The translations under genes and the position numbers were made by a program. Positions 7,571 through 58,650 of a stretch of 64,000 nucleotides of DNA are shown piece after piece. Under the pieces are notes generated by a model that did no database searches, was not told the DNA's origin, and saw only the letters and a list, made by a program, of their open reading frames with translations. Positions within the stretch are counted from its first letter, which is position 1; each line of letters begins with the position of its first letter. The stretch comes from Gammaproteobacteria bacterium (lineage in GTDB: Bacteria > Pseudomonadota > Gammaproteobacteria > Xanthomonadales > Wenzhouxiangellaceae): positions 248,001 to 312,000 of the forward strand of contig JAJFKY010000011.1 in assembly GCA_021772975.1 (NCBI GenBank). The letters are read 5' to 3'.

Positions 7571-8089
7571 CTAATCCCGTTCGGCTGTGCAGGCCAGCAT
7601 CCGTCTGGCCAGACTGGCAAACCCAGCTTCCACGCCAGCACCGCTGAGTGCGCTGCTGCGCTGCACTTCCCAGCCCTTTTCGCGCTGTTTGATCAGCCAT
7701 TCAGGGGGCACCTCCCAACGCTGCTCCAGATCAGCCTTATTGATCAGGCAACAGGTGCTGACCGCCGGATTATCCCGCTGCAGATAGGCATGCAGATCCT
7801 CAGTGGCCTGAAGCGTTTCAGCACGGGTTCCGTCAGCCACCAGCAGGCAGCCGTGGCTGCCGGCCAGATAACCGGACAATAATTCCGGACTGGCCAATTC
7901 TCCGGCAATGTCCCAGATCACCAGCTTCAATGCCTGACCGTCCACCATAAGTTGCTTGGTCACAATGTTTACCCCTACGGTGGTCTGGTAATCATGCTTA
8001 AAAACATTATTTACAAAGCGCTGGCAGAGACTGGTTTTGCCTACCGCAAAGTTGCCCAGCAGACAGATTTTTCTTACCAGCCCCGACAT
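7571..8089 (-). CDS. Ras/Rab-like small GTPase
   Basis: 172 residues from the ATG at 8089; an in-frame GTG five codons upstream is the alternative start. All five G-boxes are visible: P-loop G-N-F-A-V-G-K-T-S (12-20), switch I Thr37 within Y-Q-T-T-V-G-V-N, W-D-I-A-G-E (59-64), N-K-A-D (117-120) and S-S-A-L (145-148). The W-D-x-A-G and T-V-G elements are those of the Ras/Rab branch rather than Era/TrmE GTPases. The position equivalent to catalytic Gln61 of Ras is Glu64. No lipidation motif is seen. No clear Shine-Dalgarno precedes either start. Before the MITE insertion the start lay only about 15 bases after the OmpA-like gene's stop, so translation was probably coupled. Confidence 0.9.
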   Translation of the reverse strand: MSGLVRKICLLGNFAVGKTSLCQRFVNNVFKHDYQTTVGVNIVTKQLMVDGQALKLVIWDIAGELASPELLSGYLAGSHGCLLVADGTRAETLQATEDLHAYLQRDNPAVSTCCLINKADLEQRWEVPPEWLIKQREKGWEVQRSSALSGAGVEAGFASLARRMLACTAERD

Positions 8090-8104
8090 CTGATTCTGAT
8101 TCAC

Positions 8105-8108
8105 TTAA
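8105..8108. repeat. Target-site duplication TTAA, left copy
   Basis: TTAA directly abuts the left terminal inverted repeat of the element at 8109-8393, and an identical TTAA abuts the right end (8394-8397). TTAA fits the Y-T-A-R target pattern of the IS5 family. TTAA is itself a palindrome, so this copy alone does not prove duplication; the TTAG pair around 11919-11945 does. Confidence 0.6.
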
Positions 8109-8393
8109 GGAACTTCTGATTTAATCTGACATGGTCGCGAGCGAGTCTTGTTTGGTGTAGTGCAGTGCCATAATCTATAAAATCCGTCAACGCAGGCATA
8201 GCGGGCTACGTCAAGTTGACAAAGTGCTGCAATGCGCCAAACAAGGCCGCTCCCACATGGGGTTACGCCCGTAATCGCCCAATCGTGCGTTGCGTTGCTG
8301 GGCAATAGGCTGGCTATTGTACTGCGCAACGACGCCTTGTCTTGAGCGATTTCGGGCTGTAACGTGGCCATGGCAGATTAAATCAGAGGTTCC
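8109..8393. mobile_element. MITE-like element inserted between the OmpA-like and GTPase genes
   Basis: 285 bases bounded by terminal inverted repeats of 26 bp with two mismatches. Both ends read GGAAC-Y-TCTGATTTAATCTG, followed by a variable base and CATGG, pointing inward. It encodes no transposase; the longest frame inside (8105-8371, minus) has no protein-like features and I do not call it a gene. TTAA flanks both ends. A 27-bp derivative of the same ends lies at 11919-11945 with TTAG flanks. Likely a non-autonomous derivative of an IS5-type element; no full-length parent is in this window. It separates the signalling gene row into two halves. Confidence 0.75.
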
Positions 8394-10265
8394 TTAATCT
8401 TGCGTTGCCGCTGCGGACAACTGGATGAGAACTGCGCGGACGTTATTTCCACCCTGGCCATCAACAGCGTTGATAATATGGATGCTATCGGCTGGAATCC
8501 CCCTGTCCAGCAATACCCTGCGCACCATTTCGGCGCGCTGGCTGCGCAATTGCACATTACGTGGCGCGCTAAAACGACCGTCGGTCAGACCGGTCAGCGT
8601 TATCCTGGCCGGCAGTTGCCGCCGACCCGATAATTCCATCAAAGCCTGTGATTCCTGGGCCAGCAATTGGATTGACTGGCTGCTTTCGCCGGTTAACCTG
8701 GTGTCCGCGGTAAATCTCAGCAGATGGTTTTCCCAGCGTTGCCGCCACAGACTGATACGCCGCTCCAACAACCCCACGGACAAATCCTCCACCTGCGCGG
8801 CAATACCGATTTCCCGCAGGCGCTCCGGCAGATTGTCGCGCCACTGCGACGGCACGCTGCCGGATAATTCCAGTACATCCCCACGCCAAGCCAGGCTGAC
8901 TTCATCGGGCGCTGCCAGTCTCAACCGCAAACTGCTGATATCCAGCAACGGCGCTTGTTGCAGCTCCAGTCCCAGCGTCGCATCCAGGTTCTGCAACCTC
9001 TGCCAGTCACTGCGCGCCACCGGGCCGCGCACGGTGAACCCGGTCAAGCCACTATCGGTAACCGTTTCCGACAACTGCAGCTGGCTGTATTCCAGTGCGG
9101 TAATATTGGCCAGACGGTGGATGGCCAGCGCCGGCTCGGTGGATTGATAGCTTTCCAGCCGAAATACCACTCGTTCAGGCTCAATAGCCTGCTGGGCAAG
9201 CAACTGTTGTGCGGTTACCGCCAGTGGATCACGTAAAGCGCGGATCCGAACCTGACCGGACACGATGGCGTCGTCCAGGATCACCCAGCCGGGCGTTACC
9301 CGCAGAGCGCTCAGCAATTGATCTCGATCATGATCCAGCCACCACCAGCGCCAGCCTAACCAGGCCAGCACGGCCAGTATCAATACCAGCAACACCCAGA
9401 TCGGTTTGATGCGGCGCTGCCCGGCAGTCAGCTCAGCCGGATCAAGCTGCTTGCGTAACAGACAACCGCTTAAAGCCTCCTCCAGTTCCAGCTGCTCGGT
9501 CTGATCGTCCCGCTTACCCTCATGTCGCAGCCAGTCTCCGCTGTGGCTGTGAATGGCTTCCAGGCGTTCCTGCAGCAAACCACGCGCGGCACGCGGCACG
9601 GTGCCTTCAATCACCGCAACCAGCACCGCATACTGACCGGGCACAATCCATAAGGTCTGTACCCCGACCTCAATGCTGCGCACCGGATGATCTTCTTCAG
9701 TGGCAAACGATTCCTGGATAAAACGCTGAATCGCACTAAGCATGGCAGCCACCGCATCGCGATCCAGCACGTCGGCGGTTTCACGCGCTGCGCGGGCAAC
9801 CAGCACGCCACTCTCGCGCTGCACCAGAAAGACTTCTTCAATGCTGTAGGCCAGGGTGTGCTTGAGTATGATCTGGGCGAATGGAATACCGGTGCGCCAG
9901 GCTTCCAGGCGCCAGCGCCAGCTGCGTAGACTGAAGCTGTGTTCGATGCTTTGATTGATATTGTCCAGTAAACCCTTCAGGGCTTCGCTGACCGCCCGCC
10001 GGATAGCCGGACCCATGATCGGGTAAAACATTGCCGCAAAACGTTGTGGCTGGCTGCGGACAGTGGTTTCCAAACCACGGCTTATCGGCGTTTCCAAACT
10101 GTCCTGCAGGCGTTTATCGTGCTGCAGATCATGCAGGCTGTCAGGTAAAATCTCGCTCAGTTCGGTGACCCGCCGTGAGCGATTTTCCAGTCGCTGTTCC
10201 AGGGCATCCAAACGTTGCTGCTCTCGCTGCAGCAGCAATTGACGGAGCCGGTCGAGATCAGCCAT
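8394..10265 (-). CDS. Large membrane-anchored OmpA-family protein of the GTPase module
   Basis: 623 residues. Residues 1-280 are predicted cytoplasmic: a charged coiled coil (1-40), a helical stretch with R-R-A-V-S-E-A-L-K-G, and a region (about 140-225) with alternating strands around E-E-V-F-L-V-Q-R-E-S-G-V-L-V and L-W-I-V-P-G-Q-Y-A-V-L-V-A-V-I-E that resembles roadblock/longin-type folds. One membrane helix follows (about 289-309). The rest is predicted periplasmic: two BON-like segments, one with A-L-R-D-P-L-A, and a degenerate OmpA/MotB-like C-terminus (about 515-615). The stop TAA is formed by the TTAA next to the MITE. The topology could couple cell-wall contact outside to the GTPase inside, which is inference. 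Confidence 0.8.
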   Translation of the reverse strand: MADLDRLRQLLLQREQQRLDALEQRLENRSRRVTELSEILPDSLHDLQHDKRLQDSLETPISRGLETTVRSQPQRFAAMFYPIMGPAIRRAVSEALKGLLDNINQSIEHSFSLRSWRWRLEAWRTGIPFAQIILKHTLAYSIEEVFLVQRESGVLVARAARETADVLDRDAVAAMLSAIQRFIQESFATEEDHPVRSIEVGVQTLWIVPGQYAVLVAVIEGTVPRAARGLLQERLEAIHSHSGDWLRHEGKRDDQTEQLELEEALSGCLLRKQLDPAELTAGQRRIKPIWVLLVLILAVLAWLGWRWWWLDHDRDQLLSALRVTPGWVILDDAIVSGQVRIRALRDPLAVTAQQLLAQQAIEPERVVFRLESYQSTEPALAIHRLANITALEYSQLQLSETVTDSGLTGFTVRGPVARSDWQRLQNLDATLGLELQQAPLLDISSLRLRLAAPDEVSLAWRGDVLELSGSVPSQWRDNLPERLREIGIAAQVEDLSVGLLERRISLWRQRWENHLLRFTADTRLTGESSQSIQLLAQESQALMELSGRRQLPARITLTGLTDGRFSAPRNVQLRSQRAEMVRRVLLDRGIPADSIHIINAVDGQGGNNVRAVLIQLSAAATQD

Positions 10266-11620: not shown

Positions 11621-11896
11621 ATGAGCACTATCGATATCAGTCACGCCCATAACCTGTCACTGAAAAAAGCCCGCACGGTGGCTGAAGAACTGGCCGATGA
11701 ACTTGCTCATGAACATCGGCTGGTGCATGAGTGGGATGAAGATACCCTGCATTTCAACCGTACCGGCGTCGATGGTCAGATTCACGTCAGCAAGCAAAGC
11801 ATCGATATCCACGTCAAACTTGGCTGGCTGCTGGTTGCCCTGCGCGGTGTTATCGAGCATGAAATTCATCGCGTGCTGGGCAAGCACTTCAGCTAG
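11621..11896 (+). CDS. Polyhydroxyalkanoic acid system family protein
   Basis: 91 residues, matching the small PHA-granule-region family (PHA_gran_rgn), which usually begins M-S-x-I-x-I-x-x-x-H and has K-x-A-R near residue 20. Here these are M-S-T-I-D-I-S-H-A-H-N-L-S and K-K-A-R. The family's genes often lie near polyhydroxyalkanoate synthesis or granule genes; none are visible here. I start at the ATG at 11621; the frame is open upstream to 11477, but that part is not conserved-looking. It faces the peroxiredoxin gene with the palindromic MITE remnant between. Confidence 0.75.
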   Translation: MSTIDISHAHNLSLKKARTVAEELADELAHEHRLVHEWDEDTLHFNRTGVDGQIHVSKQSIDIHVKLGWLLVALRGVIEHEIHRVLGKHFS

Positions 11897-11914: not shown

Positions 11915-12394
11915 TTAGGGAACCTCTGATTTAATCTGAGGTTCCTTAGCAAGAGCCTCGATAGCCGCCAGCACCTCATCTCGCTGACGTCGAAACATGG
12001 CCACTTTTTCGACATGTTGATAACGGATCACACCCGCCTCATCCACCAGGAACAGACCACGCCGCATGCCCAGCATGGATTTACAGCCATACTCAGCGGC
12101 AACCTCCAGGTCAGCGTCGGTTAACAGTGTGAATGGCAGCTGGTGGCGGGCTTTGAATTGCTGGTGGCTTTCAGCATCATCGCTGCTGATACCCACCACT
12201 TTTACCTCCAGACCGTCAAAAGCCTCAATTCCGTCCCGGTAGTCGCATAGCTGCTTGGTGCAGACTGGTGTTTCATCACCAGGATAAAACACCAATAAAA
12301 TTCGTGCGCCGCGTTGCGCGCTCAACTGGAAGCTTTTGCCCTGCTCATCCGGCAGAGTAAAGTCAGGGGCGTTATCGCCTAGTTTCATGGTCAT
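11915..12394 (-). CDS. Bcp/PrxQ-type peroxiredoxin
   Basis: 159 residues. Thiol peroxidase that reduces hydroperoxides. The start M-T-M-K-L-G-D-N-A-P-D-F is typical of the family; an ATG ten codons upstream (12424) is the alternative. Peroxidatic Cys45 lies in D-E-T-P-V-C-T and the second cysteine is Cys50, the C-x4-C spacing of E. coli Bcp. The family core ends around A-L-A-K. The last nine residues, E-P-Q-I-K-S-E-V-P, and the stop codon are encoded by the mobile-element remnant at 11919-11945 and its flanking TTAG, so the natural C-terminus has been replaced or extended. Confidence 0.85.
   Translation of the reverse strand: MTMKLGDNAPDFTLPDEQGKSFQLSAQRGARILLVFYPGDETPVCTKQLCDYRDGIEAFDGLEVKVVGISSDDAESHQQFKARHQLPFTLLTDADLEVAAEYGCKSMLGMRRGLFLVDEAGVIRYQHVEKVAMFRRQRDEVLAAIEALAKEPQIKSEVP
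11919..11945. mobile_element. 27-bp MITE remnant forming a palindrome, flanked by TTAG
   Basis: The 27 bases consist of the first 20 of the terminal repeat seen at 8109 (GGAACCTCTGATTTAATCTG) followed directly by AGGTTCC, the end of the opposite repeat. TTAG lies directly on both sides (11915-11918 and 11946-11949) in direct orientation, a true 4-bp target duplication matching Y-T-A-R. The result is a near-perfect hairpin between two converging genes and may act as a transcription stop for both. It also encodes the last residues of the peroxiredoxin. Confidence 0.7.
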
Positions 12395-12506
12395 GAGCGT
12401 CACCGCCGGTTTGTTAATAACCATCCATTATGGCGGTTTTTGCCTGGCTTGTGGTGTAAGATGCAGACCGTGAAGTTAATGTGATCATTCCAAACAACAC
12501 TGATTT

Positions 12507-35349: not shown

Positions 35350-35407
35350 TAACTGTACGGATTCAGCTGCAATCTTTTTATGCTCGCTCTGTGATAGATT
35401 ACCAATG

Positions 35408-35431
35408 GTCGCCCGCAAGCGGGCTCCTACA
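35408..35431 (-). repeat. REP element 1
   Basis: Read on the minus strand: TGTAGGAGCCCGCTTGCGGG followed by CGAC, with a short internal palindrome (GCCCGC/GCGGGC). This is the REP type common in pseudomonads and relatives. Orientation opposite to the two copies downstream. Confidence 0.75.
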
Positions 35432-35462
35432 AGCTGCGGGAATTAACCAGTCTGCACCCTCC

Positions 35463-35486
35463 TGTAAGAGCCCGCTTGCGGGCAAC
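35463..35486 (+). repeat. REP element 2
   Basis: TGTAAGAGCCCGCTTGCGGG followed by CAAC, differing from copy 1 by two bases. Head-to-head with copy 1 across 31 bases, the arrangement of a BIME-like pair. Confidence 0.75.
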
Positions 35487-35577
35487 CTGCCTGTATACCT
35501 GATGGCTTAGCTTGGATTTACTGGTAACAGAAAACGAACTCCGACGCGCAAATGCCTATACCAACCCGCCTGATTAC

Positions 35578-35601
35578 TGTAAGAGCCCGCTCGCGGGCGA
35601 C
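35578..35601 (+). repeat. REP element 3
   Basis: TGTAAGAGCCCGCTCGCGGG followed by CGAC, in the same orientation as copy 2, 91 bases further on. Confidence 0.75.
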
Positions 35602-35957
35602 CTGACAGTATTGACTGATGGCTTAACCATGCGTGCATTAACTGATAATACAAAGCCCTGTGATAAAGAACTTCACTCCAGAAACCACACCCTGACGCAC
35701 AAGCCCGTCATTTCGACCAACGGGAGAAATCTTTACCTCAAACCAACAGAATCAACCGATATCGCATGTCTATCCAATAAATTTATCCTTCTTCTCACCC
35801 GATCTAATCGATAGAACACATTACGCCATGCACTAAATCAGGCTGCCTGACCAACCAGTAATCTCAGCGGCCAAAGCATAACCGCTATTGTGAACCCGCT
35901 ACGATTCACCTATGCTCGTGCGGCTAAAGCCATAAGCCTTCGGGATCTATATCGACC
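35602..35957. other. Repeat-rich intergenic region before the symporter
   Basis: No gene supported; an open frame crossing 35512-35814 runs through the REP copies and has no protein-like features. Around 35708-35735 lies GTCATTTCGACCAACGGGAG followed by AAATCTTT, a short intergenic repeat type seen in many genomes (from memory). The symporter promoter should lie in the last 150 bases. Confidence 0.5.
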
Positions 35958-55546: not shown

Positions 55547-55984
55547 ATGGACCCATTTATGCAAGCCGCCATCGACGAAGCCGCTCAGGGGCTGGCTGAA
55601 GGCGGTATTCCGATTGGCTCGGTGATCGTTCACAATGGCCAGATCATCGGCCGCGGTCACAACCGCCGCGTCCAGCAGGGCAGCCCCACCCTGCACGGTG
55701 AAATGGACGCACTGGAAAACGCCGGCCGCCAACCGGCCAGGGTTTACCGGGAAAGCGTTATTTACACCACCCTCTCACCCTGCTCGATGTGTACCGGTGC
55801 GATCCTGCTGTATGGCATTCCTAAAGTGGTGATTGGCGAGAACCAGACCTTTATGGGATCAGAGTCGTTATTGCGGGAGCATGGGGTGGAGCTGGAAGTA
55901 TTACAGAACGAGCAATGTATCGGTTTGATGCGGCAGTTTATTGAGCAATCGCCGGAGCTTTGGAATGAGGATATTGGGGAATAA
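55547..55984 (+). CDS. Yeast-type cytosine deaminase (zinc CDA fold)
   Basis: 145 residues. Zinc site His50 and Glu52 in T-L-H-G-E-M-D-A-L and Cys79 and Cys82 in S-P-C-S-M-C-T-G-A-I. From memory it aligns over almost its whole length with Saccharomyces FCY1, sharing E-G-G-x-P-I-G near residue 20, L-E-N-x-G-R, Y-T-T-L-S-P-C-x-M-C-T-G-A-I, Y-G-I-P and V-x-G-E-N, and the terminal E-D-I-G-E. It should turn cytosine to uracil and feed PreTA. Strong AGGAAG site. The unrelated bacterial CodA amidohydrolase is the usual enzyme for this step. Confidence 0.88.
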   Translation: MDPFMQAAIDEAAQGLAEGGIPIGSVIVHNGQIIGRGHNRRVQQGSPTLHGEMDALENAGRQPARVYRESVIYTTLSPCSMCTGAILLYGIPKVVIGENQTFMGSESLLREHGVELEVLQNEQCIGLMRQFIEQSPELWNEDIGE

Positions 55985-57949: not shown

Positions 57950-58410
57950 GACTGAACTCCCTGCTCGGTTAATTGTTTTCGAACTATTGATACCCTTTAC
58001 CCAATGATACCTATCGTATCGCATTTTTCAGAATGACGGTTGCTACGCCTTAATAGACCCTATATATGATGTCATCCTGAACGCGGTGAAGAATCTTCTG
58101 CATGTTGATGGTCTTGTCAGCGGCTGTTACGCCTTAACAACCCCTACATACGATGTCATCCTGAACGCAGTGAAGGATCTCTATCATTATCTGATAAGAC
58201 TTGCATTACAGCACATATTCCGGATGAAGGATGCAGACGGAATAGCAAGCAATATCAGCTCAGCCTGCTAATCGAGCTGGCGTAATGCAAGCTGTTTATT
58301 ACAGCCTATGAAACTGATGAGATGAGCTTGCCGGTATGACAGTTTGCTCAGGCTTTTAGCAGAAGCGGATTAAACCCACGGCCGGCTGGGGCAGCTGTGT
58401 GACGACTATT
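57950..58410. other. Intergenic region with diverged 84-bp-period repeats
   Basis: No gene supported. Two related units of 55 bases lie at 58042-58096 and 58126-58180, each ending in GATGTCATCCTGAACGC, then GTGAAG and ATCT, an intergenic repeat type seen in many bacteria (from memory). A short frame at 58086-58271 crosses them and is not a gene. The oxidase promoter should lie at 57960-58030. Confidence 0.55.
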
Positions 58411-58650
58411 GGTGCAATGCGCTTTGCTTATTACACCCTGCGGCACTGCTCCATGTGTACCAGCACGATCCTGCTGTCTGGCATTCCCAGGGCGGTAATT
58501 GGCGAGAACCAGACCTTTATGGGGTCAGATTCGTTATTGCGGGAGCATGGGGTGGAACTGGACGTGCGGCAGGATAAGCAGTGCATTGGTCTGATGCCGC
58601 AGTTTATTAAGCAATCGCCGGAGCTTTGGAATGAAGATATCGGCGAATAG
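58411..58650 (+). pseudogene. Truncated copy of the cytosine deaminase gene
   Basis: From about 58440 on it translates to H-C-S-M-C-T, then G-I-P-R-A-V-I-G-E-N-Q-T-F-M-G-S-D-S, and ends N-E-D-I-G-E, matching residues 78-145 of the deaminase at 55547. The first 77 residues, including the zinc ligands His50 and Glu52, are gone. The 5' part is replaced by GGTGCAATGCGCTTTGCTTA, a sequence also found in a close form after the intact gene (56041). Confidence 0.75.

Follow-up and report, generated by a model that had tools for sequence, protein, structure and literature searches.

How did a conserved peroxiredoxin come by a C-terminal tail that none of the orthologues examined carries? The question is raised by a gene in the window (the whole stretch of DNA that was analysed, 64,000 nucleotides), whose last codons run through a 27-bp near-palindrome with the sequence of MITE ends. 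The features of the locus are as follows.

11915-12424, minus strand: peroxiredoxin of the BCP/PrxQ (AhpC-TSA) type, 169 residues, ending in EALAKEPQIKSEVP and the stop (Pfam AhpC-TSA and BCP structure matches)
11919-11945, no strand assigned: MITE remnant, 27-bp near-palindrome GGAACCTCTGATTTAATCTGAGGTTCC, which matches the MITE family ends
11946-11949, no strand assigned: first copy of the target-site duplication, TTAG, read as CTAA in the gene, nearer the gene body
11915-11918, no strand assigned: second copy of the target-site duplication, TTAG, read as CTAA in the gene, which holds the stop in use
11918-11947, minus strand: stretch encoding the foreign tail KEPQIKSEVP, residues Lys160 to Pro169 (from the rebuilt empty site and the alignment of relatives)
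11621-11896, plus strand: convergent neighbour gene, PHA_gran_rgn protein of 91 residues (Pfam PF09650, E 1e-26), whose stop lies 22 bp short of the 27-mer

The 3′ end of the peroxiredoxin gene

The peroxiredoxin matches Pfam AhpC-TSA with an E-value of 4e-37 in a profile search. It also matches the NCBIfam model of thioredoxin-dependent thiol peroxidase (E 3e-28, under the cut-off of the model), and the NCBIfam equivalog cut-offs for BCP and PrxQ are not reached. The domain contains the CxxxxC pattern in VCTKQLC (Cys55 and Cys60), and Cys55 is invariant across the peroxiredoxin alignment. A structure model was built from an alignment of 33 sequences, as a single-sequence model (pLDDT 35) was too poor for use, and its best Foldseek matches are solved BCP structures. 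The last helix of the model spans residues 148-160 and residues 162-169 have a pLDDT below 50; therefore, the foreign tail most likely hangs outside the predicted catalytic fold.

On the minus strand the gene ends GCT AAG GAA CCT CAG ATT AAA TCA GAG GTT CCC TAA, which is translated as A-K-E-P-Q-I-K-S-E-V-P-stop. The nine codons E-P-Q-I-K-S-E-V-P cover 11919-11945, confirming the proposal of the sequence-only reading that the protein is read through the 27-bp element. The stop codon had been thought to be made from the last C of the element and the flanking TTAG; this is wrong, as the TAA in use occupies 11915-11917 and lies wholly inside the second TTAG/CTAA copy. The Lys codon of the tail combines AA from the target site with G from the element, and the final Pro codon, CCC, combines the last two C of the element with the first base of CTAA. 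In the empty site, CTAA is split between codons as G-CT-AA-C, giving GCT AAC TAA. The insert measures 31 bases (27 + 4), and because this is a multiple of three plus one, the second CTAA is read C-TAA and the tail runs to its TAA. The element both supplies the tail and moves the frame onto the target-site stop. In this reading frame any CTAA, CTAG, TTAA or TTAG target ends in Pro-stop (CC-Y TAR).

The native end was sought by rebuilding the empty site and by aligning orthologues. When the 27-mer and one CTAA are removed, the gene ends ...EVLAAIEALAN-stop and encodes 160 residues, so that Asn160 is replaced in the present gene by the ten residues KEPQIKSEVP, a net gain of nine. The orthologue of a sister genome of the same genus (G001), 72% identical to the peroxiredoxin, ends ...EVLAAIRGLDG-stop at exactly this length. 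The locus is syntenic, as the convergent PHA_gran_rgn gene is kept beside the orthologue (69% identity). The 3.5-kb locus of the orthologue contains no match to the terminal repeat. The IKSEVP tail is absent from every orthologue examined in the same genus, family and order, and no element-free orthologue with the same tail was found among them; most other relatives' peroxiredoxins end near residues 158-161, and longer ends consist of unrelated sequence. These comparisons support the earlier proposal that mobile-element ends have become coding sequence. We regard the element-derived C-terminus, as predicted from the reading frame, as confirmed and well supported.

The MITE family and other gene ends

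The genome holding the window (G000) comprises 24 contigs, 3.74 Mb in all, and the window lies on contig C3. A scan with the 18-bp end GGAACCTCTGATTTAATC gave 80 matches in G000 at three or fewer mismatches, compared with none for a reversed control. Paired up, these matches define 28 complete elements, 27 to 316 bp in length and with inverted ends of about 20 bp; most are 270-316 bp long, and shorter forms measure about 170-186, 122, 98, 56 and 27 bp. These copies are short and contain no transposase gene. The 4-mers on the two sides are the same in 14 of the 28, compared with a mean of 2.7 when pairing is shuffled (maximum 8 in 2000 shuffles), and agree within one mismatch in 24, compared with 10.5. 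The two TTAG copies beside the peroxiredoxin remnant therefore stand, as had been suggested, as a target-site duplication of 4 bp. YTAR is the commonest flank, with TTTA, CTTA, CTGG and TAAG as variants.

G001 contains 30 end matches. Many paired copies were found only in G000 and G001; in other relatives the end-like matches are isolated. The Gammaproteobacteria MAG OFTM154 is the nearest named relative, followed by Wenzhouxiangella MAGs. The YTAR target of 4 bp agrees with an IS5-family source, but an autonomous IS5-type DDE partner with the same ends was not found: neither DDE_Tnp_1 (PF01609) nor DDE_Tnp_1_2 (PF13586) was detected in G000 or G001, both contig assemblies in which a copy may be missing. 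Therefore, we call the family IS5-like only.

A longer member of the family lies in the window.

8109-8393, no strand assigned: MITE family member of 285 bp, reading QIKSEVP-stop outward at both ends
8105-8108, no strand assigned: target-site duplication TTAA, left copy
8394-8397, no strand assigned: target-site duplication TTAA, right copy

The I-K-S-E-V-P reading noticed earlier inside this element holds, since the minus-strand ORF 8105-8371 ends CQIKSEVP-stop at its left end. QIKSEVP-stop appears at its ends because a YTAR target in that frame gives Pro-stop. Positions 8394-8396 form the stop codon of an OmpA-domain gene (8394-10265, minus strand). The element fills the gap between this stop and the region where a small Ras-like GTPase gene (7571-8104, minus strand) begins, and it may split an operon or provide that gene's upstream region. 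Other repeats were also seen in the window: a GC-rich cluster of GTAAGAGCCCGCTTGCGGGC-type repeats in direct and inverted copies at 35407-35611, a 229-bp direct repeat at 55755-55983 and 58421-58649 (82% identical, 2.7 kb apart), and a further 60-bp repeat pair at 58037-58180.

Gene calls around the other MITE copies are ORFs with a codon score, and the names MlaF-like, MBL-fold and MATE-like were assigned by reading the sequences. Two G001 genes end in element copies.

G001 C44:225600-227900 (L171), element at about 998-1269 of the locus: MITE at the MlaF-like ATPase, tail QPLI-stop
G001 C11:233600-235900 (L163), element at about 1041-1223 of the locus: 183-bp MITE at the end of the MBL-fold hydrolase

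The first is a 272-bp copy flanked by CTAA at either side; here the MlaF-like ABC ATPase ends ...YTKQPLI-stop, compared with ...YTKP-stop for the empty site; its G000 orthologue has a different, longer tail. At the second, the MBL-fold protein ends ...FLELGNL-stop, compared with ...FLELDE-stop for the empty site. These new tails show that the peroxiredoxin case is not unique. In addition, a MATE-like gene in G001 has a degenerate 27-mer directly next to its stop.

We considered and rejected an enrichment of insertions at stop codons. In three of the 28 copies (four with one imperfect case) the target site contains the stop of a gene, and from the window about 12% of non-coding YTAR sites are expected to be stops; the number is therefore not above chance (P about 0.45-0.68).

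Origin of the 27-bp remnant

The arms of the 27-mer are self-complementary at 24 of 26 positions. How such a fragment could arise is suggested by the MITE end, which carries the small palindrome GATTWAATC. Because the repeat holds its own small palindrome, the inverted ends double as in-register direct repeats; these are imperfect direct repeats within the inverted repeats (GATTWAATCWGA; left end GATTTAATCTGA, right end GATTAAATCAGA). After a deletion between them, 19-21 bases remain from one end and 8-6 from the other; no other register aligns the two ends with as many matches as 27 bp. When the consensus ends are fused at the repeat, the product equals the observed 27-mer letter for letter. 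G000 has three 27-bp copies (peroxiredoxin, C4:148567 and C19:13083), two with identical target-site duplications (TTAG; TTAA) and one with TTAA/TTAT, and G001 has about 7-11, some quite degenerate. The G001 palindromes (L160, L161, L173, L175-L178 and L196-L199) are numerous and mostly near gene 3′ ends; perhaps they are an ageing class of solo scars.

The element family, its target-site duplication, the empty-site reading and the orthologue ends are brought together by a history that we consider very probable: a MITE inserted near the peroxiredoxin stop, collapsed to 27 bp, and is now read through as a tail. Insertion would have come before collapse. A MITE with IS5-like ends, presumably moved by a transposase of IS5 type, would have entered a CTAA target at codons 159-160, one codon before the native stop, and duplicated it. 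Later, the interior would have been lost through a deletion between the direct repeats, so that the two ends would stand fused head to head. Translation would pass through the remnant as K-E-P-Q-I-K-S-E-V-P and finish at the TAA of the second CTAA, leaving the peroxiredoxin nine residues longer, with a floppy tail beyond the catalytic fold that is probably nearly neutral.

Alternatively, the 27-bp palindrome may itself be mobile, as a minimal two-ended element that went straight into CTAA without any collapse of a longer MITE. Between G000 and G001 no site was seen with a long copy in one species and a 27-mer in the other, the sole long blastn match between sites lying inside the element sequence itself; the 27-mer might have inserted ready-made. 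The recurrence of 27-bp copies in both genomes, several with divergent yet matching arms, and the identical 4-bp duplications around the two cleanest G000 copies would also fit. However, a deletion that joins the ends of the long element gives this very sequence, and forms of intermediate length show internal deletion to be frequent in the family. A cut-and-paste transposase would moreover be unlikely to accept as its substrate a 27-bp DNA whose ends overlap. We therefore consider this alternative unlikely.

Still less likely, in our view, is that the palindrome has been kept as a functional hairpin of both convergent genes (a transcript 3′ end, terminator or RNase III site), with the tail as a by-product. 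It does lie between two convergent stops, 27-mers are frequent just 3′ of stop codons, and the hairpin folds well on both strands (-13.3 kcal/mol, z -5.0, for the 27-mer; -22.4 kcal/mol, z -4.7, for the plus-strand 56-mer). However, gene 3′ ends tolerate insertions anyway, stop codons show no enrichment of the elements, and the palindrome is absent from the G001 peroxiredoxin locus. A terminator role was rejected, as the peroxiredoxin 3′ end has no terminator-like site with a T tract. The idea that the tail is native and resembles the element by chance draws on the varying length of peroxiredoxin C-termini, a few distant orthologues (L108, L113 and L114) having longer, unrelated tails. Against it stand the agreement over 27 bp with a family that has 80 end matches, a perfect target-site duplication, the lack of IKSEVP in any aligned orthologue, and an empty site that restores the orthologous length; we give this idea almost no credence. 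The insertion and collapse of a MITE remains our preferred explanation.

Whether the same outcome recurs elsewhere is a further question. The copies retrieved hold 65 near-matches to the outward terminal-repeat frame; a stop closes 36 of these, of which 14 read exactly QIKSEVP-stop. The sequence-only reading had called for a survey of genes ending in I-K-S-E-V-P; such outward readings do recur, but the peroxiredoxin is the only coding-scored G000 gene found to run into its own element and end this way. It is conceivable, and we put it forward tentatively, that the family collapses repeatedly to exactly 27 bp, a length divisible by three, and that the remnant with its YTAR copy always reads (Q)IKSEVP-stop in one frame, which would be a recurrent self-terminating tail for unrelated genes. 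If so, insertions near gene 3′ ends can leave a (Q)IKSEVP tail on unrelated proteins.

Comparison with known systems

Target sites of IS5-family MITEs are CTAA, CTAG, TTAA and TTAG. The family described here is like them in its 4-bp YTAR duplications and in ends beginning GGAACCTCTGA..., and unlike them in that no partner transposase was found in G000 or G001. Within the literature covered, a search on IS5 'YTAR' or MITE stop-codon targets returned nothing relevant.

Proteins ending in or containing MITE sequence are known from Rickettsia, enterobacteria, Yersinia and Neisseria (PMC2229807). In Coxiella burnetii Dugway, QMITE2 at the 3′ end of enhC gives C-terminal residues with a stop directly downstream, and QMITEs in functional annotated Coxiella genes sit at gene 3′ ends (PMC5896051). 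The enhC and peroxiredoxin cases are alike in that a MITE at the gene 3′ end provides C-terminal residues. However, enhC involves another element family and a long element, joined via an indel, that gives a 33-residue tail, whereas the peroxiredoxin has a 27-bp remnant, a 10-residue tail and a stop in the target-site duplication. Rickettsia palindromic elements are likewise small palindromic repeats translated in frame in conserved genes, and in the gmk case enzymatic activity was kept; they measure 105-146 bp and their target duplication is listed as unknown (PMC2229807). The peroxiredoxin element, in contrast, lies at the extreme C-terminus, measures 27 bp and is flanked by an evident 4-bp duplication. 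ERIC/RU-1, YPAL/RU-2 and Correia elements are also MITE sequences translated within host ORFs (Delihas, PMC2229807), but their ends are unrelated and their units are about 107-168 bp.

MITE-supplied C-termini in bacteria are thus already known, and the peroxiredoxin is a minor example. It nevertheless shows cleanly, with a target-site duplication, a rebuilt empty site and an orthologue control, that a small mobile element has rewritten the terminus of a conserved enzyme. Insertions near the 3′ end are easily tolerated because the YTAR target holds a TAR stop in one frame, and the element can shrink to a fixed 27-bp scar because of the palindrome inside its inverted repeat. Such scars are easy to overlook in annotation and can pass for native tails. 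Two points are somewhat distinctive beside the systems above: a scar of fixed length, 27 bp, and a stop provided by the target site.
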